Below are positions 50,010 through 57,861 of a stretch of 64,000 nucleotides of DNA, piece after piece. Source of the stretch: Catenovulum agarivorans DS-2. GTDB taxonomy: Bacteria; Pseudomonadota; Gammaproteobacteria; Enterobacterales; Alteromonadaceae. The DNA lies in contig NZ_ARZY01000012.1 in NCBI RefSeq assembly GCF_000568405.1, positions 1 through 64,000 on the forward strand. The letters run 5' to 3'. The notes beneath the pieces were generated by a model. The model had not been told where the DNA came from. It ran no database searches and saw nothing but the letters and a program-made list of their open reading frames with translations. Position 1 is the stretch's first letter; every line of letters begins with the position of its first letter. A program made the translations under genes and the position numbers.

Positions 50010-50084
50010 GTATAAACCGTTAAACAAGCAAAGTAGACTTTTGTGTGAAATAAATAAAACGCAATATAAAATATGCGGGAAAAC

Positions 50085-50113
50085 AACTAAAGCAACATTG
50101 CGTCGCTTTAGTT
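50085..50113. terminator. Terminator between DUF6435-like gene and efpL
   Basis: AACTAAAGC and GCTTTAGTT form a perfect 9-bp stem with an 11-nt loop, 10 nt after the efpL stop. On the minus strand GTTTTCC follows and on the plus strand TTAG, so it could serve both convergent genes. Confidence 0.7.
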
Positions 50114-50123
50114 TTAGCAAACT

Positions 50124-50690
50124 TTATGCTCGACCCATAAAACGAACTTCTTCAGTGTTCACTTTTACCCGGTCACCAGTAGAAATATGCTCTGGTACTT
50201 GAATAACCAAACCTGTGGTCAAAGTAGCAGGTTTAGTACGTGCACTAGCAGATGCACCTTTAATTGATGGTGCGGTTTCAGTAATCACTAGCTCAACACT
50301 CGGTGGTAATTCAACCATTACTGGGTTGCCTTCAACCAATACCACAACCAAACCTTGGGTATCGTCAGCAATAAATTTAGCTTCTTCTTCAATGGTCTCT
50401 TTATTTAAGTGGTACGGCGTATAGTCTTCGCTGTCCATAAATACAAACTCATCACCATCCATATAAGAGAAAGTCACAGGACGACGCGCTAAATCAGCCA
50501 CATTCAGCATATCTTCGGCTTTAAATGTATGGTCAATTTTGCCACCCGTAACCACATTGTACATGCGCATACGGTACAAACTTCCACCAGCTCTACCTTG
50601 TGGCACAGAGCGCTCAATATCTCGAACAATTACCACACCACCATCAAACTCGATGGCCATATTTTTTTTAATTTCACTTGCCTTTGGCAT
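50124..50690 (-). CDS. efpL: Elongation factor P-like protein (EfpL/YeiP)
   Basis: The 188-residue protein is the EF-P paralogue EfpL (YeiP), which rescues ribosomes stalled on polyproline and related motifs. It has [14 protein letters not shown] at the start, an extended beta3-loop (VPQGRAGGS) with Arg at the tip instead of the modified lysine of EF-P, and the conserved [19 protein letters not shown] near the C-terminus, ending RFMGRA. This identifies it as EfpL, not EF-P. Confidence 0.94.
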
Positions 50691-50780
50691 AACTAAGCCC
50701 TTAAACGCTTATAGAAAATTTTCGCGAATTTAGCAGAAAGCGTAAGCGTCGCCAAGTAGAGTTTAGTTAGATTTTTTTAC

Positions 50781-50812
50781 ATCATGTGATATATTAAAAT
50801 CTATCATTTGAT
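50781..50812 (+). promoter_or_regulatory. Paired ATCA-NN-TGAT operator sites of the Xre-RES operon
   Basis: ATCATGTGAT (50781-50790) and ATCATTTGAT (50803-50812) share the palindrome ATCA-NN-TGAT and start 22 bp apart, two helical turns. The second is part of a 14-bp palindrome, CTATCATTTGATAG (50801-50814), next to the ribosome site. A TATATT (50790-50795) between them could be the -10. Binding of the Xre antitoxin here would shut its own promoter. Confidence 0.6.
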
Positions 50813-50824
50813 AGGAGTGCATCT

Positions 50825-51262
50825 ATGAATCAATTTAATCCAATTATTGAAGAAACAACGAGCGTTTGGGACAGTGTAGGTATTCCACCACGTGGGAATG
50901 AATTGTACGCAGCACTCAACAAAGGATTATCATTTGATGTTTTTCGACAAATATCAGAGTTAACTCAGTTAGATAAAAAAGAAATTGCCAATGTTATTCA
51001 TTTGGCACCTGCTACATTGGCAAGGCGGGCAAAAGCGGGACATTTTAATCGTGAAGAAAGCGATAAGTTTTACCGCTTCACCGAAGTGGTGAACGCCGCG
51101 GTTGAATTATTTGAAGGTGACCTTACGGCCGCTAATCAATGGCTTAAACGCCCAGTTAAAGGCTTAGGTGGAAAAAAGCCGATTGAAATGTTAGGCACCA
51201 GCGCTGAGAGCGAAGCTGTGTTAGACCTAATCGGACGACTAGAACACGGCGTATTTGCGTGA
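50825..51262 (+). CDS. Xre/MbcA/ParS-family antitoxin
   Basis: The 145-residue protein has an Xre-like helix-turn-helix (ISELTQLDKKEIANVIHL, PATLARRAK) followed by the toxin-binding MbcA/ParS/Xre C-terminal domain (FTEVVNAAVELFEGD, ANQWLKRPVKGLGGKKP). It should neutralise the RES toxin encoded next and repress the operon. A TAGGAG ribosome site lies eight bases upstream of ATG. The stop overlaps the toxin start by four bases (GTGA). Confidence 0.93.
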   Translation: MNQFNPIIEETTSVWDSVGIPPRGNELYAALNKGLSFDVFRQISELTQLDKKEIANVIHLAPATLARRAKAGHFNREESDKFYRFTEVVNAAVELFEGDLTAANQWLKRPVKGLGGKKPIEMLGTSAESEAVLDLIGRLEHGVFA

Positions 51263-51714
51263 TAGCCATCTATAGAATTGTTAAAAAGAAATGGGCAGCT
51301 TCAGCTTTTGATGGTGAAGGCGCACGTTTATTTGGCGGCCGTTGGAATAACAAAGGCAAAGCCTGTATTTATGCTGCAAGCAGTGAATCTTTAGCCTTGT
51401 TGGAAATTCTGGTTCACTTGGAATCAGATGCAATTTTAAACTCATACACCCTGCTAAAATCAAAACTTCCAACTACAGAAATAATGACATTAGGTACACT
51501 ACCTAAAAATTGGCAAGCAGAGCCTGCACCAGCACAAACAGCCGTAATTGGTGATCAGTGGCTCAAAAGTGGAAAGAGTTTAGCCTTACAAGTACCAAGC
51601 GTAATCGTACCGCGTGAATATAACTATTTAATAAACCCCTTACATCCAGCAATGAAAACTGTGTTAGCGTCAGTTGAAGAAATTGAAATTAGTATAGATT
51701 CAAGATTGGTTTGA
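51259..51714 (+). CDS. RES-domain toxin
   Basis: The 151-residue protein starts at GTG 51259 inside the antitoxin stop. RES toxins (MbcT, ParT and relatives) resemble ADP-ribosyltransferases and either destroy NAD+ or modify a target. The conserved Arg, Glu and Ser region is visible in LFGGRWNNKGKACIYAASS and ESLALLEILVH, and VPSVIVPREYNYLINPLHP is typical of the C-terminal half. The length is normal, so the toxin appears intact. Confidence 0.93.
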   Translation: MIAIYRIVKKKWAASAFDGEGARLFGGRWNNKGKACIYAASSESLALLEILVHLESDAILNSYTLLKSKLPTTEIMTLGTLPKNWQAEPAPAQTAVIGDQWLKSGKSLALQVPSVIVPREYNYLINPLHPAMKTVLASVEEIEISIDSRLV

Positions 51715-51830
51715 GCCATAGCTACTGATACGCCTCTCCAGACACCTCTGAAAACTGAATAAACTTTAGCCTAGTACTAAATGGAAGTTGTGTTAAAATC
51801 AATTCAAAGTTAAACACTGAGGGTGTCTCA

Positions 51831-52088
51831 ATGCCAAACGTAATTGTGAATAAAAAAGCTAAGGTAAGCCGCAGTCAAAAAAATGCGTTAGGTGATTGGA
51901 AAAAACTTAGTACCTATGCCCATTACGGCTCTGTAGCCGCACAAAAACTGGCTAAACAACAAGGTGTTGCAATAACTGTAATTGAGAACGGTAGTGTGGT
52001 AAAAATTGCGCCAGATGGCAGTAAAACAAAGGTTGAACGCAAATCAACTTCAACACCTGCAACCTTCCATCCTCTTCAACTTGGCTAA
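51831..52088 (+). CDS. Small basic protein, putative partner of the zeta-like kinase
   Basis: The 85-residue protein (MPNVIVNKKAKVSRSQKNAL) is basic, with a helical centre (GSVAAQKLAKQQG) and a short beta-like segment (ITVIENGSVVKIAPDGSK). A GAGGGT site precedes the ATG. It ends two bases before the kinase gene, the usual layout of an antitoxin-toxin pair. I do not recognise the family, and it does not look like the classic epsilon antitoxin. Confidence 0.75.
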   Translation: MPNVIVNKKAKVSRSQKNALGDWKKLSTYAHYGSVAAQKLAKQQGVAITVIENGSVVKIAPDGSKTKVERKSTSTPATFHPLQLG

Positions 52089-52090
52089 AC

Positions 52091-52741
52091 ATGCCTAGAG
52101 TAAGATTAATTGCAGGGCCGAATGGTTCTGGTAAAACGACCCTTTTCAAAACGCTTCAACAACACCAAGACGTACATTTTGGCCAATATATAAACCCAGA
52201 TGACGTCGCAGACACTTTAAAAGGCTTCAAACCAACAAATTCTGCCAAGCCACTTATTGACGATGATAGATATAAAGCAGCACAAAATATATGTGTAGGG
52301 TTGCGTGACAAGTATTTAGAACAGGGTTTATCTTTAACCTATGAATCTGTGATGAGCCATGCGAGCCACCTCGACTATATTAAAACGGCAAACTCCAAAG
52401 GCTTTAAAACTTACCTGTACTACACTTGCATTAACGACCCTGACGTCAATATTGAGCGTGTTTCTGCACGAGTTAAAACAGGAGGCCACCCTGTACCAAC
52501 CGACAAAATTGTAAAGCGCTATTTTGCTAGCCTAGAGCAGCTATTTGAAATGGCTTCAATTTGCCACAGAGCTTACTTTTTTGACAACTCGTTTACCCAA
52601 GAATTATTTGCCGAAAAATCAGAAAATAACCTATTAAAAATAGACCAATCGAGATACAACCAAATTGCCCCAATTTGGTTTCAAGAATATGTACTAAGCA
52701 AGTGGGATAAGGATTTACTGAGGTTGATTGAGTATTCGTAA
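52091..52741 (+). CDS. Zeta-toxin-like P-loop kinase
   Basis: The 216-residue protein begins with a Walker A loop at residues 9-17 (GPNGSGKTT) and continues NPDDVA, LTYESVMSHASHLDYI and RVKTGGHPVP, the layout of the zeta-toxin family. Zeta toxins phosphorylate UDP-GlcNAc and block cell wall synthesis, but homologues of this short, single-domain type are little characterised. The small gene just upstream is its likely antidote. It ends 19 nt before the convergent RayT gene. Confidence 0.85.
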   Translation: MPRVRLIAGPNGSGKTTLFKTLQQHQDVHFGQYINPDDVADTLKGFKPTNSAKPLIDDDRYKAAQNICVGLRDKYLEQGLSLTYESVMSHASHLDYIKTANSKGFKTYLYYTCINDPDVNIERVSARVKTGGHPVPTDKIVKRYFASLEQLFEMASICHRAYFFDNSFTQELFAEKSENNLLKIDQSRYNQIAPIWFQEYVLSKWDKDLLRLIEYS

Positions 52742-52760
52742 ATCTATGGTGGCCTGATGT

Positions 52761-53255
52761 TTAACCGCACCAATTTATTGAATAATACCCATCAGCCACA
52801 GCACGATGAAAACTCGAATAGGGCCAGTCTTTTACCTGACAAACCAAACCATGTTTTAGCGGATTAATATGTACATAATTGATATGGTTGATCAAATCAG
52901 CCTCATTACGAATGGTATGTTCCCAGAACCGCTTTTGCCAGATTGGGCTATCAGTAAAATGTGATCTTGTGCCAGATGACATTTCCGATTTAGATAAAAG
53001 ATAGCGAAATCGTTTTTTGATTTCGCGCCAACGCCCAGAATAATCACAATCCCCTTCAGGCAAAGTCCAGACTGCATGTAAATGATTTGGCAACACCACC
53101 CAAGCTTCAATTGTAAACGGCCTCTGCTGCTTTACTCGACGTACCGCCTCACGCAATAAATCCACTTGCTCAACCAGCAACTGACTCTTTTTATCCTGCA
53201 AACTCACCGTAAAAAAATATGACCCACCTTCCACATACATCCTTCTATACCGCAT
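52761..53255 (-). CDS. REP-associated tyrosine transposase (RayT)
   Basis: The 164-residue single-strand DNA transposase of the Y1 HUH type has the metal-binding motif LPNHLHAVWTLPEGD, the RAYT-typical IKKRFRYLLSKSE and IWQKRFWEHTIRNEAD segments, and a catalytic-Tyr region near INYVHINPLKHGLV. RAYTs act on REP hairpins. A REP-type sequence begins 36 bp upstream of its start, and its perfect inverted copy lies 4.4 kb away. The gene looks complete. Confidence 0.93.
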   Translation of the reverse strand: MRYRRMYVEGGSYFFTVSLQDKKSQLLVEQVDLLREAVRRVKQQRPFTIEAWVVLPNHLHAVWTLPEGDCDYSGRWREIKKRFRYLLSKSEMSSGTRSHFTDSPIWQKRFWEHTIRNEADLINHINYVHINPLKHGLVCQVKDWPYSSFHRAVADGYYSINWCG

Positions 53256-53290
53256 CCCTGCCCTCCATTTTTATCTTTGCCACATCCTAT

Positions 53291-53322
53291 TGTAGGTCTG
53301 GTAAGCCAGAGGCGCACCTGAC
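53291..53322 (+). repeat. Left copy of a perfect 32-bp REP-type inverted repeat
   Basis: This sequence is the exact reverse complement of 57738-57769. It contains an imperfect palindrome, GTCTGGT and ACCTGAC around AAGCCAGAGGCGC. It lies between the RayT gene and the 3' end of the SIR2 locus. Confidence 0.9.
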
Positions 53323-53445
53323 AATTTTGAGGTGAGTCGAAGATTGGCATCCGTTCACTGAACAGCCGTCTTATCTTGAGCTCACTTCCCACTTAGAACA
53401 AAACACCACTTGTAACTGCTTGGCCCAGCTCCCCTTGAGCGAAAT

Positions 53446-54588
53446 TTAATATTTCTCCCAGGCATTCCTAACTTCCGAAAATTCAATGTCAGATTTAGAT
53501 ATATCAAACCAATCATTAACAACGTTCGGTATAGTCATATTTTTGAGTGAATAATAGTCTTTCAACGCAGAAGCCAACCTTACGGCACAGCTTCTTAAAT
53601 TTATTTTAAATTCAAACTCGATATTTAACTCTTGAGTACTCGGATTCGTCTCGGTCAATAATCTCAACAATCTATTTTGAACTTTTTTATCTAAATTTGA
53701 GGTAAACGATTGAGGATTATTTTTTACGATATCAATTACAACCCAAAGAGCTTGCGTAAGCATGTTTGTATTATTCCAAGTAATAAATTGCCCCAACATT
53801 TCAGTTAAGTCTGTTTGGTATTCCTTACCGCTTTGAGTTTTTAACATAACTGGAATCGCTAGAAGTGCATCTCTTTGAACTTCGATATCACATGACAGCA
53901 TATTTGTTTCAATTTTATTTAAAACAATATCAACACTTTCTGGTTTTAAATCACAAAACGCAGCTTCAGCCTTTAAGGTATTTATACCTAGCTCTTCCAT
54001 TCCTACTATTATGCGGGTTAATTCTAGAATTATTGCTTGCTCATTATTATCTAATTTTGGTAAGACTACCGAGCTAAGAATTTTGACTACTTCGTTGAAT
54101 CTCAGATTAAACTCTTTGTCACCCCCAAAAAACAAATACCGTTCTTTTGGCTCATTTTTTTCTTGTTCGACCCATTGTTTGTCTGTATCCCACCACTCAA
54201 TCAATTTATGCGCAAAATATTTGATATCGTCTTGCCCCCAGATGTTTATATGAGGGCGACTTGCACCAGCTATCTCATCTAACAAACTAATTTTGCCACC
54301 TAACAAACTAAACCCATTTTCCTTACCTCTAATGGGAAAAGTCTCGGTATAAATATACTTTTTAAAATTTGCCAAAGTATCGACATCTTGAGGTTTAGGT
54401 AAGTTTAAATATGCAAATCTGTAGTAAATAGATTTTTCAGGCAAACCAAATTTATCAGTTTGTTGGTATAAACCATCTGCAAATTTGTTCTGCTCTTCAC
54501 TATTAAGTAAATCAAGCGAAATTAAAGTGTCACAGCTTGCTATTGCCCATTCACGCTTTGCTTGATTTTTTGTAGTTAAATTATCCAA
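53446..54588 (-). CDS. Downstream part of the SIR2 locus (helical protein, TTG start)
   Basis: Read alone this is a 380-residue soluble helical protein with a TTG start at 54588 and no good ribosome site. The frame stays open upstream as far as the amber stop of the SIR2 gene (54643-54645), 398 codons in all and in the same phase. Its start (KREWAIASCDTLISLDLL, then GLYQQTDKFGLP and YRFAYLNLPKP) reads like a continuation of the helical-repeat C-terminus of large SIR2 proteins. I therefore think it is the C-terminal third of one interrupted protein. An independent partner subunit remains possible. Confidence 0.7.
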   Translation of the reverse strand: MDNLTTKNQAKREWAIASCDTLISLDLLNSEEQNKFADGLYQQTDKFGLPEKSIYYRFAYLNLPKPQDVDTLANFKKYIYTETFPIRGKENGFSLLGGKISLLDEIAGASRPHINIWGQDDIKYFAHKLIEWWDTDKQWVEQEKNEPKERYLFFGGDKEFNLRFNEVVKILSSVVLPKLDNNEQAIILELTRIIVGMEELGINTLKAEAAFCDLKPESVDIVLNKIETNMLSCDIEVQRDALLAIPVMLKTQSGKEYQTDLTEMLGQFITWNNTNMLTQALWVVIDIVKNNPQSFTSNLDKKVQNRLLRLLTETNPSTQELNIEFEFKINLRSCAVRLASALKDYYSLKNMTIPNVVNDWFDISKSDIEFSEVRNAWEKY

Positions 54589-54642
54589 TAATGTGCGAAT
54601 TTTATCTCTATCAAGCCCTAACGAGCTTTCATCTGATAGGGC

Positions 54643-57414
54643 CTACTTTTTAATATTCAATCTCAAAAACGGATTGAAAAAATCGTCTTCGGTTCTTGGA
54701 TTTATATCTTCTGGAAAATCGATTTCCAGTAGCTTCGGAATCAATTGATATTGTTCAATATCCGTAAAAGATTCAATTAAACGCCTAACCAAATGTCCAA
54801 AGTTCATATATCTTCGTTTGTGGGAAGATTTATACGTTTTTACCACAAAATCTAACACTTCAATTCTCGTATTGTAACTCGCTTTACAGCACAGCCTTGA
54901 AACTACCTCTGGTAAAATTTTTGCCAAACGAGATGCTAAATTGGACTGGCTGTAATCGACCAACAAACTGAGCTCTGCTGCCGAATCATTCAGTGCTTGT
55001 ATACATTGGTTAATGAGCAAATCAATTTCACCCGTTGGAAAGGCGAATATAAACTCTCGACTGAATAAATTATCTACAACCTTTAATTCACCTGTTCGCA
55101 CTAAAGTTGCAATAGTCCAAAACGGCAAATCTTTTTGAATGAATTTCAAACTATTTTCTGCGCTTTTTTTAGTGTTCAAATGCCAATTTTTAACAGCAAA
55201 GGGTAAACCTATTTCTTCAGAAAAACGTAGGATTGAAGTAGCCTTTACCAGAGAACCGTAACCATTATTATGATGAGAGCTTGATGTTTGCCTACCAATA
55301 TCGAAACTTGGTTTAATTGTATTTGTGCTTGGCGAATCAACAGAAATAGATAGTTTAAATTCGAATAATTTAATTTCCCCCCAAGGATCAACCCTTTTAT
55401 CCAGTAACTCATCCCACCGTTCCCGCAGTATTTTATTTTCAAGATTTTTATTATTCTGCCGAACCTCCGTCAATAATCGCCTCCATTCTTCACAACGACT
55501 ATTACCCTTTTCTTTATTTGCTAACAAATCTTCCCAATCATCTTCAGGATTAAGAGCGACAGGTTCGTGCTCGTACTTTATTGTGGACGCGCCTATCGCG
55601 GAAACACTATCTCTTGAATTTTGCCGCTGTGTAACAAACAGCTCTTTGATTTGATTACGTTCTTCTGGTGTTTCTGGCGATGGATCCCTGAATGAATCGT
55701 GATTAATATCTCTTAAACTTCTGTAGATTAGAATTTGGTAGGCCTCATGACTTGCGTACAAGCAACTCAAACCATTAATATCTGAAATCGCCTTTTTTCT
55801 TGTTGCAGCTAATGCTAACTTTGCTTTTTTATCTGCATCGTCAAGAACACCACACTCAGCCAGCGCCATAATTCGTTTGCTTTGCCAATAAGGTAATGTT
55901 GGTGCAGACTGCCAACTTTTAATTGCTTCGTGAACTTTTTTGATGTCAAAAGTGAAAACAGCAAATAAATATCTTTCGTAATACACAAATTGTTTTTGTT
56001 CTTCACTTAAAAAAGCAAAAAAGACATTTGTTTGTGCATTAAGTTTTTCCCATTCTTCGAGTTTCCCATCTTCACGATAAAATCGAAATAATGACAGAAA
56101 AACTTCTAACCATGCTTTTTGAATTAACTTCCAGTTAAAACCCCTGTTATGAATATTATTCGGCCGGCCATTAGTTGATGCCTTGCTAACCTTTTGCTCA
56201 AAAGGTTCATATTTTTTCAATAATTCCTCGCATGTATTGGCCAATAAATCAGAGATGAGTGGAACTAAGCATCTATCTAAACGCCACAATAATTCAGCCA
56301 TTAATAAAATATCTAATTCATCATCCGTAAAATAATTAGAATCGCCTTCTTTACTCTCGAAAAATTGAACCCAGTGATTTGTTTGAAACCAAAGTGTTTC
56401 CCTGTTGGCATTTGGTAAGATTAACCACCCTGGATAATTCTTTCGCGCTTCCTGCCAAACTGACAATAATTTTTTAAACTCTTGAGGTGAATCAGTTGGA
56501 TTCATTTTCTGATGTTCAGGAAAAGTCATGCTATCGGAATGAGGCCAATCGAGGTGGTAAACATTTTGATCGTTTAAGTATTCAATAACTTTGTTTAAAG
56601 CAAGGCCATGATCTTTATAGTCTTCTCCGCTACAAAGTCCAATGTTAACAATATTAATATTTTGTTTCGCTAACATGCTCTGCCTAGCCGACGTCAAATT
56701 AAATACACCTATCAAATAAATTTTTTGGGTATTTTGGCTCTCTAGTTGATCTCTCAGCCACCCAATCCATTGCAGAAAATTGGGGTCGTCCCCAGAAAAT
56801 CCAATTAAACAAATCGTATTTTCCATAAATGATTGCCTAACTGTATTAACAAATGGCGCAAATTTTTCAGGGTAAGTACGATAATCTTCTTCGGTTAAAA
56901 TAAAAGGTCTTTGTGACGGGAAACTACCATGAAGTTTAACGATTCGTGGAGAACAGGCAGACGCTAAATCAAGCTTATTGTGGACTGGTGTATATTTTCG
57001 TTTTGTAACGTTATCAGTAGCACGCTCCAACAATGTATCATAGTTGGTCGTGAATACATCAACCCAAGGTAACTCAAGCAGTTTTGAGTGTAATTCAGAC
57101 GGTTCAACACTCTCATCAGGGATCAATTTTCTAAGTAAATCATCTAACGCTGGACGGCCGATAGTCGCTTCAGCTTCTTCTGCAATACGCAATAAACTCG
57201 AATATCTTTTAGCATCTTCGTTTGGCTCGCATCCATGTGCTTGCTCATACAACCGATCTCCCAATTCTCCCCAGAGAGGGAAATTGTTGCTTGCATTACG
57301 GCTAAACCCGGAGCCAACCAATACAGATGCTCTGCCAGCATATAACCTCTCAGCAATTTTATTTAAGTGGGCAAGTATAGATTTAGGGAATTGATGTTTT
57401 TTAGCTGATGACAT
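54643..57414 (-). CDS. SIR2-domain defence-type protein, upstream part
   Basis: The 923-residue protein begins with a SIR2-like NADase domain (about 20-250): GSGFSR (34-39), FTTNYDTLLE with the catalytic Asn (Asn124), IVKLHGSF with the catalytic His (His162), and GFSGDDPNFLQWIG (about 205). Such domains in DSR1, DSR2, ThsA and similar antiphage proteins cut NAD+ after phage sensing. The remaining 670 residues are helical, probably repeat-like and sensory. It ends in TAG at 54643-54645, yet the same frame continues open for 398 codons, giving about 1320 codons in total. It lies in an island with toxin-antitoxin genes. Confidence 0.85.
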   Translation of the reverse strand: MSSAKKHQFPKSILAHLNKIAERLYAGRASVLVGSGFSRNASNNFPLWGELGDRLYEQAHGCEPNEDAKRYSSLLRIAEEAEATIGRPALDDLLRKLIPDESVEPSELHSKLLELPWVDVFTTNYDTLLERATDNVTKRKYTPVHNKLDLASACSPRIVKLHGSFPSQRPFILTEEDYRTYPEKFAPFVNTVRQSFMENTICLIGFSGDDPNFLQWIGWLRDQLESQNTQKIYLIGVFNLTSARQSMLAKQNINIVNIGLCSGEDYKDHGLALNKVIEYLNDQNVYHLDWPHSDSMTFPEHQKMNPTDSPQEFKKLLSVWQEARKNYPGWLILPNANRETLWFQTNHWVQFFESKEGDSNYFTDDELDILLMAELLWRLDRCLVPLISDLLANTCEELLKKYEPFEQKVSKASTNGRPNNIHNRGFNWKLIQKAWLEVFLSLFRFYREDGKLEEWEKLNAQTNVFFAFLSEEQKQFVYYERYLFAVFTFDIKKVHEAIKSWQSAPTLPYWQSKRIMALAECGVLDDADKKAKLALAATRKKAISDINGLSCLYASHEAYQILIYRSLRDINHDSFRDPSPETPEERNQIKELFVTQRQNSRDSVSAIGASTIKYEHEPVALNPEDDWEDLLANKEKGNSRCEEWRRLLTEVRQNNKNLENKILRERWDELLDKRVDPWGEIKLFEFKLSISVDSPSTNTIKPSFDIGRQTSSSHHNNGYGSLVKATSILRFSEEIGLPFAVKNWHLNTKKSAENSLKFIQKDLPFWTIATLVRTGELKVVDNLFSREFIFAFPTGEIDLLINQCIQALNDSAAELSLLVDYSQSNLASRLAKILPEVVSRLCCKASYNTRIEVLDFVVKTYKSSHKRRYMNFGHLVRRLIESFTDIEQYQLIPKLLEIDFPEDINPRTEDDFFNPFLRLNIKK

Positions 57415-57573
57415 ATTTCATCCTTGATGAATTTATTTTTGCACACAACAAACCATATACCACAACCGTAAAAATTCCAATAAAAACAGCACATTGAACT
57501 GACGTTTTTTTGTATCTACAAGTTCAATATAACTGCGAGTTTGATAGAGACAAACGACCCATAAACAAAAAAC

Positions 57574-57600
57574 GTTAGATGCGCCTTTAGTTTATCTAAC
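57574..57600. repeat. REP-like hairpin a
   Basis: GTTAGAT and ATCTAAC pair perfectly around GCGCCTTTAGTTT. The stem differs from the other copies while the loop keeps GCGCCT. Confidence 0.75.
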
Positions 57601-57706
57601 CTACATTAGCTTCATTTATCGGACGCTATTTTTCGAGTTGGTCGACGCGCAAACAAAATTGAAGGCAACTCGGAAGCTGAGTAAATGTCAGACTTACCAG
57701 ACAACA

Positions 57707-57731
57707 TTACATGCGCCTACGGCTTATGTAA
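57707..57731. repeat. REP-like hairpin b
   Basis: TTACAT and ATGTAA pair perfectly around GCGCCTACGGCTT. It begins 31 bp before hairpin c and has the same orientation. Confidence 0.75.
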
Positions 57732-57737
57732 CAGAAA

Positions 57738-57769
57738 GTCAGGTGCGCCTCTGGCTTACCAGACCTACA
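57738..57769 (-). repeat. Right copy of the 32-bp REP-type inverted repeat
   Basis: This is the exact reverse complement of 53291-53322. Its hairpin pairs GTCAGGT with ACCAGAC (one mismatch) around GCGCCTCTGGCTT. Confidence 0.9.
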
Positions 57770-57811
57770 AAATGTATGAATAGTTCAAAATTTAAGCGGG
57801 GTAAAAACGAA

Positions 57812-57835
57812 AAAAGCGGCTGTTAAGCCGCTTTT
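57812..57835 (-). terminator. Rho-independent terminator of gcvP
   Basis: AAAAGCGGCT and AGCCGCTTTT pair perfectly around a 4-nt loop. On the minus strand a T-rich run follows. It lies 26 nt beyond the gcvP stop. Confidence 0.9.
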
Positions 57836-57861
57836 GAGTGATTTAACAAAGTAAAACCAAT

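Follow-up and report, generated by a model that had tools for sequence, protein, structure and literature searches.

An amber codon within a large SIR2 frame

Why does a gene for a large antiphage protein carry a stop codon in an otherwise open frame, and is it one gene or two? This question is raised by a 64,000-nucleotide stretch of Catenovulum agarivorans DS-2 (NCBI RefSeq assembly GCF_000568405.1, contig NZ_ARZY01000012.1, positions 1 to 64,000 of the forward strand; hereafter the window). On its minus strand, a SIR2 frame starts with an ATG at 57414, runs for 923 codons and ends in a TAG at 54643-54645, after which the same frame stays open for 398 more codons up to a TAA at 53446-53448. 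We consider it likely that this is a single gene related to the antiphage system DSR2, cut by one nonsense mutation that is probably recent, and that its product is inert. Proteins of this kind carry a SIR2 domain at the N-terminus, followed by a long sensor of helical repeats, and kill cells infected by phage through the degradation of NAD.

The layout of the two pieces had been given in a preliminary description of the stretch and was confirmed by translation. At the base composition of the window, the chance of 398 open codons is about 1e-15. The first start codon past the TAG is a TTG, 18 codons on, and inspection by eye revealed no Shine-Dalgarno-like sequence upstream of it. In this respect the preliminary description, which mentioned the TTG and its poor ribosome site, was accurate; its statement that the downstream part has no ATG was wrong, since ATG codons occur in it, the first as codon 215 (counted on the translation). 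There is, in short, no recognisable start for the downstream part, whereas the ATG at 57414 is preceded by AAGGA at a distance of six bases. Three other same-frame pairs of at least 100 open codons occur in the window, and family searches showed all of them to be separate genes (crcB/serS, a MerR-type gene and a P-type ATPase gene, and an unassigned gene before gcvT). The features of the locus are as follows.

54643..57414, minus strand: first frame of the DSR2-like gene, SIR2 NAD-cleaving (NADase) domain and most of the helical region, ending in TAG; matches to NF041819 and PADLOC Dsr2
56560..57390, minus strand: SIR2 domain, residues ~9-285; Pfam SIR2_2 at 2.1e-22 and structural match to 8wyc_C
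54643..54645, minus strand: in-frame TAG; the surrounding linker is variable and joins two helical-repeat modules
53446..54642, minus strand: C-terminal HEAT/ARM-like third, 398 codons and TAA; matches to NF041819 and PADLOC Dsr2; no start signal of its own
57421..57425, minus strand: AAGGA, read by eye; probable ribosome-binding site for the DSR2-like gene
57812..57835, minus strand: terminator-like hairpin after gcvP, consensus match only

Judging by the hairpin that follows gcvP, the DSR2-like gene may have a promoter of its own.

Both pieces correspond to one DSR2-like gene

The preliminary description regarded the downstream piece as a continuation of the helical C-terminus of a large SIR2 protein, and this view was borne out by profile searches. 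The first piece matched positions 1-823 of the 1215 in NF041819, the NCBIfam equivalog for Dsr2 (curated cut-off 1400 bits), with 950.5 bits, and the second piece matched positions 833-1215 with 278.5 bits (E = 1.3e-82). When joined, the frame gave one match of 1239.3 bits with one TAG inside. Likewise, the PADLOC model for Dsr2 (PDLC02184, 1222 positions) was matched by the first piece with 925.4 bits (1.6e-278; best stretch 3-559, plus a second stretch) and by the second piece over positions 839-1221 (8.1e-81), a strong match at both the N- and the C-terminal model parts, but from two frames rather than from one chain. The window gene thus shares the order of parts and the catalytic SIR2 residues with the NCBIfam and PADLOC versions of DSR2, and differs from them by the TAG, which interrupts what would otherwise be a single chain with an intact distal sensor. 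Since the joined score lies below the curated cut-off, as it does for intact relatives at the level of the order, we refer to the gene as DSR2-like. In contrast, ThsA and other SIR2 NADases, which have the SIR2 fold in common with the window protein, matched it over the SIR2 region only (best stretch for ThsA, 15-235) and with far lower scores.

For residue-level comparisons the window protein was aligned with 47 of 91 related loci, picked by hand, the other 44 being partial, broken or more distant. The catalytic residues Asn124 and His162, already noted as intact in the preliminary description, are present in the window protein and near-universal among the relatives (47/47 and 46/47, respectively); they probably correspond to N133 and H171 of the DSR2 protein of Bacillus subtilis.

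Relatives cross the homologous point in one frame

A scan of genome contigs detected 299 relatives, the best 80 of which were kept, and a scan of viral sequences detected 11. At 72 of the 80 loci in genomes and 8 of the 11 in viral sequences, one open frame crosses the point homologous to the TAG; the count of crossing loci includes four that are broken elsewhere (L160, L167, L172 and L192). Among the eight genome loci without a crossing, five stop at a contig end or at most 300 bases from it, two lie in several pieces (L144, near the homologous point, and L162, before it), and one (L196) shows no match that far. At the three remaining viral loci (L214-L216) the match does not reach the homologous point. 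Furthermore, seven relatives of 1309-1339 codons (L126-L130, L181 and L182) have a total length like that of the window's two pieces, and their alignment runs across the TAG, six of them lacking one residue in the linker and the seventh none. L127, from Gilvimarinus chinensis, is an intact copy. Homologues of about 1300 residues aligning across the stop had been proposed as a check, and they do exist. Conversely, the parts are not always separate genes and the homologues do not all end near residue 923, either of which would have spoken against one interrupted gene. Because both pieces match consecutive parts of one profile and most of the genome homologues kept cross in one frame, the assignment of both to one DSR2-like gene is supported by homology, in agreement with the core of the preliminary description, which saw one large SIR2 defence gene with one amber break.

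Breaks not caused by a contig end were found in six of the 80 genome homologues (L144, L160, L162, L167, L172 and L192), all of them from metagenome assemblies as judged by title. Their types are mixed and their positions scattered: L160 has two TAA codons, L167 a TAG and L172 a TGA, while L144, L162 and L192 have frame shifts. The frame shift of L144 lies in an A-run near the same linker, in a contig with a coverage of about 4 by its title, and L162 breaks about 430 bases ahead of its contig end. No in-frame stop was present at the site of the window's TAG in any of the 80 genome loci, L144 being frame-shifted near there. A recurrent programmed stop was therefore rejected, as the stops of L160, L167 and L172 lie elsewhere and the other three breaks are frame shifts.

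When viral contigs were searched for the same DNA, a pattern spanning the stop gave no matches. Plasmid records gave no match to the C-terminal part and 331 to the N-terminal part, all below 60% identity; among phages, two records matched the N-terminal part, neither covering 80% of it.

Two relatives merit separate mention. The DSR2 homologue at L160:527-4225, in an Enterovibrio metagenome contig, has all three pieces around its two TAA codons in one frame. The DSR2 copy at L097:6806-10045 differs from that of L095 at only one of 1036 aligned residues; it is without the first 200 residues, which include most of SIR2, and lies near a contig end, indicating either a deletion or an assembly chimera.

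The predicted product and its relation to Bacillus subtilis DSR2

Translation from 57414 would end at 54643 and yield a protein of 923 residues with an intact catalytic domain and the adjoining helical domains, without the distal sensor. The last third would not be made because it has no start of its own. An AlphaFold model of the 923-residue product (predicted local distance difference test, pLDDT, 84.1; predicted template modelling score 0.74) had as its best PDB match the solved B. subtilis DSR2 (8wyd_B, Foldseek E 7.4e-16). In VIA-align, model residues 9-923 were placed on chain residues 22-814 with a Z score of 29.5, 607 aligned residues and a root-mean-square deviation (rmsd) of 16.1, and most full-length alignments equated model residue 923 with DSR2 chain residue 813 or 814. 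The SIR2 part alone (model residues 9-285) superimposed on 8wyc_C with a Z score of 29.4 and an rmsd of 2.5 Angstrom over 265 residues. By both methods, then, the translated part has a helical layout like that of solved DSR2. The B. subtilis protein (1005 residues, solved by cryo-electron microscopy; 8wy8, 8wyd and 8wkt) shares the SIR2 domain and this layout with the model, but sequence similarity between the two was detected only in SIR2, and B. subtilis DSR2 was not among the best 60 of 66 matches of the family profile.

Passages of PMC10973363 assign residues 551-860 of B. subtilis DSR2 to a region H3 and residues 861-1005 to a region H4. They also report that an isolated SIR2 domain is a monomer and shows no activity, not even in the presence of the phage tail tube protein. 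Without H4 (residues 1-860 left), inhibitor binding is reported to be compromised and NAD cleavage to be substantially impaired, and mutating H2 residues which touch SIR2 is reported to make the protein self-activating. By this mapping, the window product would be without the equivalent of late H3 and of all of H4 and would keep the H2-like region. It would be expected neither to defend nor to poison the cell, because B. subtilis DSR2 requires its distal part for the phage tail tube protein to activate it strongly. On this comparison, the 923-residue product is likely a silent protein.

The C-terminal half, modelled as if read through the stop, was predicted as a helical-repeat solenoid (pLDDT 86.6). 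The stop falls on local residue 264, in a short helix predicted at 263-266; this helix belongs to an irregular stretch that separates helix 232-236 from helix 276-287. Fold matches of this model were HEAT/ARM solenoids and large helical proteins such as importin beta and CAND1, with Z scores of up to 12.6 among the matches listed; DSR2 was not among the listed matches, and such Z scores are not decisive for repeat proteins. Structure prediction, which had been proposed as a check, thus gave a DSR2-like first product and a HEAT/ARM solenoid beyond the stop.

Conservation on both sides of the stop

In the alignment the TAG sits in a variable linker following an NPF-like motif. A FastTree phylogeny grouped the window with six of the seven long relatives and four shorter ones (support 0.995), with L129 joining this group at 1.0; the window's own branch is long. 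Identity of the window to the seven long relatives is 41-46% before the stop and 31-33% after it. To relate the two values, the conservation of the C-terminal part was regressed on that of the N-terminal part over all other pairs, and the window came out best of 48 (residual +4.2, rank 48/48); given the helical N-terminal part alone it ranked 45/48. Relaxed constraint in the C-terminal part was hence not seen in this regression over 48 sequences. Codon usage, too, is not worse downstream of the TAG. Since the C-terminal part has not decayed and codon usage does not worsen, the stop would be either young or an error.

Several observations weigh against a recent nonsense mutation in a DSR2-like gene. 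The stop is known from one assembled genome of the species, and a base-call error is possible. The absence of decay is a test of limited power, because the relatives are at best 46% identical in the N-terminal part, and at such distances a short period of decay would be missed. It is, moreover, the N-terminal rather than the C-terminal part that departs most from the family: 147 N-terminal columns are conserved in 90% or more of the relatives, and the window keeps 0.94 of them, the lowest of 48 (median 0.98), although this comparison favours the relatives, which define the columns. Changes that are not mild include Glu at residue 225, where 46/47 relatives have Gly, and Val at 276, where 47/47 have Phe, both at near-invariant SIR2-part positions outside the catalytic ones. 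The joined protein also stays under the NF041819 cut-off (1239 versus 1400 bits), as do intact relatives: an order-wide search found 0 of 394 genomes above 1400 bits, including holders of unbroken copies (1368 and 1219 bits). With respect to structure, the endpoint at residue 814 is approximate because the rmsd is high (~15 to 18 Angstrom over ~600 residues), and the B. subtilis mechanism is carried over by inference, because sequence searches link the two proteins only via SIR2.

Alternative explanations for the stop

A sequencing or assembly error would leave the gene intact in the living organism, as an ordinary working DSR2-like defence. The undecayed downstream part is compatible with this, and so is the fact that all homologues broken other than by a contig end come from metagenome assemblies, a sign that some of these breaks may be artefacts. 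However, no other such split is present in the window, where the other same-frame pairs are separate genes, and the listed completeness of the genome is 100%, its contamination 0.55%. Isolated substitution errors are, in addition, rare in assembled genomes. We therefore regard an error as rather unlikely and the stop as probably real. The possibility of a truncated NADase that is toxic, which the preliminary description derived from the intact catalytic residues, or constitutively active finds further support in the self-activating H2 mutations of B. subtilis DSR2 (passages of PMC10973363). Against it stand the inactivity of SIR2 alone and the impaired form without H4 described in the same passages, the window product ending near the equivalent of residue 814; a constitutively active NADase should also be lost quickly. 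This makes a toxic remnant highly improbable. Equally, two chains that assemble into a split protein can hardly be expected. The stop does lie in a linker between helical modules, but the TTG that would have to start the second chain lacks a ribosome site and, at local residue 283, falls inside helix 276-287, the first long one predicted for the following module. No clear two-gene arrangement is seen here at any of the 80 genome loci, L144 being split nearby by its frame shift.

Read-through of the UAG, regulated or leaky, would be a further explanation. A few ribosomes might pass the stop and so keep the dose of NADase low, or a phage-borne suppressor tRNA might raise it in infection. The conserved downstream part would fit this explanation, and phages that decode UAG by suppressor tRNAs have been described (passages of PMC10879173). 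Proof of read-through would reveal a new means of keeping a lethal defence in check. Its most specific form, in which the amber codon is a safety catch and full-length NADase arises only by rare read-through, or in quantity when a phage brings an amber suppressor tRNA, would let the altered code of the phage arm the defence. Nevertheless, the lack of an in-frame stop at this site in all 80 genome loci, together with the scattered positions and mixed nature of the other breaks, argues against read-through, and TAG ends 8 of the 41 window frames of at least 150 codons (this frame and antisense frames counted), indicating that it serves as a stop elsewhere in the window. The genome's tRNAs gave no support either. 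A search with RF00005 yielded 59 tRNA matches, with 150 of 292 first-look candidates scored and no tRNA-His among them. In 38 stretches covering these matches, ARAGORN read 58 of the 59 anticodons and found no CTA; in the remaining match (C18:19061-19140), which ARAGORN did not call, no CTA was seen by eye in mid-sequence. A tRNA-like pattern with CTA occurred at 27 places, compared with 44 for a reversed control, and ARAGORN detected only a known tRNA-Glu and tRNA-Ala cluster at 23 of the 27, the four omitted loci having the same matched letters as L117. As for pyrrolysine, two matches in the genome were both sub-threshold, so that no pyrrolysyl-tRNA synthetase exceeded the cut-off; matches were obtained in 13 of 14 control genomes, one of them above the cut-off. 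An amber suppressor tRNA, for which the preliminary description had asked, was thus not found by RF00005 and ARAGORN or by the CTA pattern, in a search that was incomplete. For read-through as for the two-chain protein, both options of that description, no positive evidence emerged beyond the conserved C-terminal part. We judge read-through in general to be quite improbable, and the safety catch to be scarcely credible.

Significance for the counting of defence genes

Most likely, then, the locus is no novel type of system but an inactivated DSR2-like gene, caught apparently early in its loss with a conserved sensor still behind the stop. A gene caller would give a 923-residue SIR2 protein that seems complete and is without part of the sensor. 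Because such truncated SIR2 proteins look complete, counts of defence systems that are blind to length would be too high. Such inactivation is ordinary for defence genes; according to a passage of the PADLOC paper (PMC9252829), a large number of putative defence genes carry a pseudogene annotation. A literature search on DSR2 pseudogenes returned nothing on the defence protein, as judged by the titles of the matches listed, and a combined-term search on phage defence systems inactivated by a premature stop codon found nothing.

The slot beside gcvP

The DSR2-like gene occupies a chromosomal slot beside gcvP (window 53330-57860). The identities of gcvP and gcvT were confirmed by family search, and gcvP is present in seven of eight genus genomes, the window's own included. 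In the other seven genus genomes, a search with the SIR2 part gave no match at E 0.001. In six related genomes (L224-L229) the slot holds other defence genes, as listed here.

G004: Gabija
G003: DNA methyltransferase with a weak restriction-enzyme match
G006 and G007: PDC-S49-like protein
G005: DRT3
G001: HamB-like and SngC/BrxHI-like helicases

The window's 50080-53329 is present in G004 at 94% identity, and Gabija fills the stretch from there to the end of gcvP. In G005 (L229:11168-12413) Drt3a is frame-shifted, its pieces matching Drt3a 1-102 and 104-414. The slot beside gcvP is a defence hotspot, a site of turnover for defence genes, so that the loss of one such gene there is unsurprising.

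The gene is bracketed by two copies of an element resembling repetitive extragenic palindromic (REP) sequences, which is found at five places in the genome at up to three mismatches, the bracketing two included.

53290..53322, plus strand: REP-like element of 33 nucleotides, perfect inverted copy of 57738-57770
57738..57770, minus strand: REP-like element flanking the DSR2-like gene at its other end, forming a perfect inverted pair with 53290-53322
52761..53255, minus strand: REP-associated tyrosine transposase adjoining the DSR2-like gene (NF047646, 4.2e-57)

Beyond the transposase, the window contains a P-loop protein resembling Zeta toxins, which has a small partner of no assigned family upstream (51831-52741), and a RES/Xre toxin-antitoxin pair (50825-51714).

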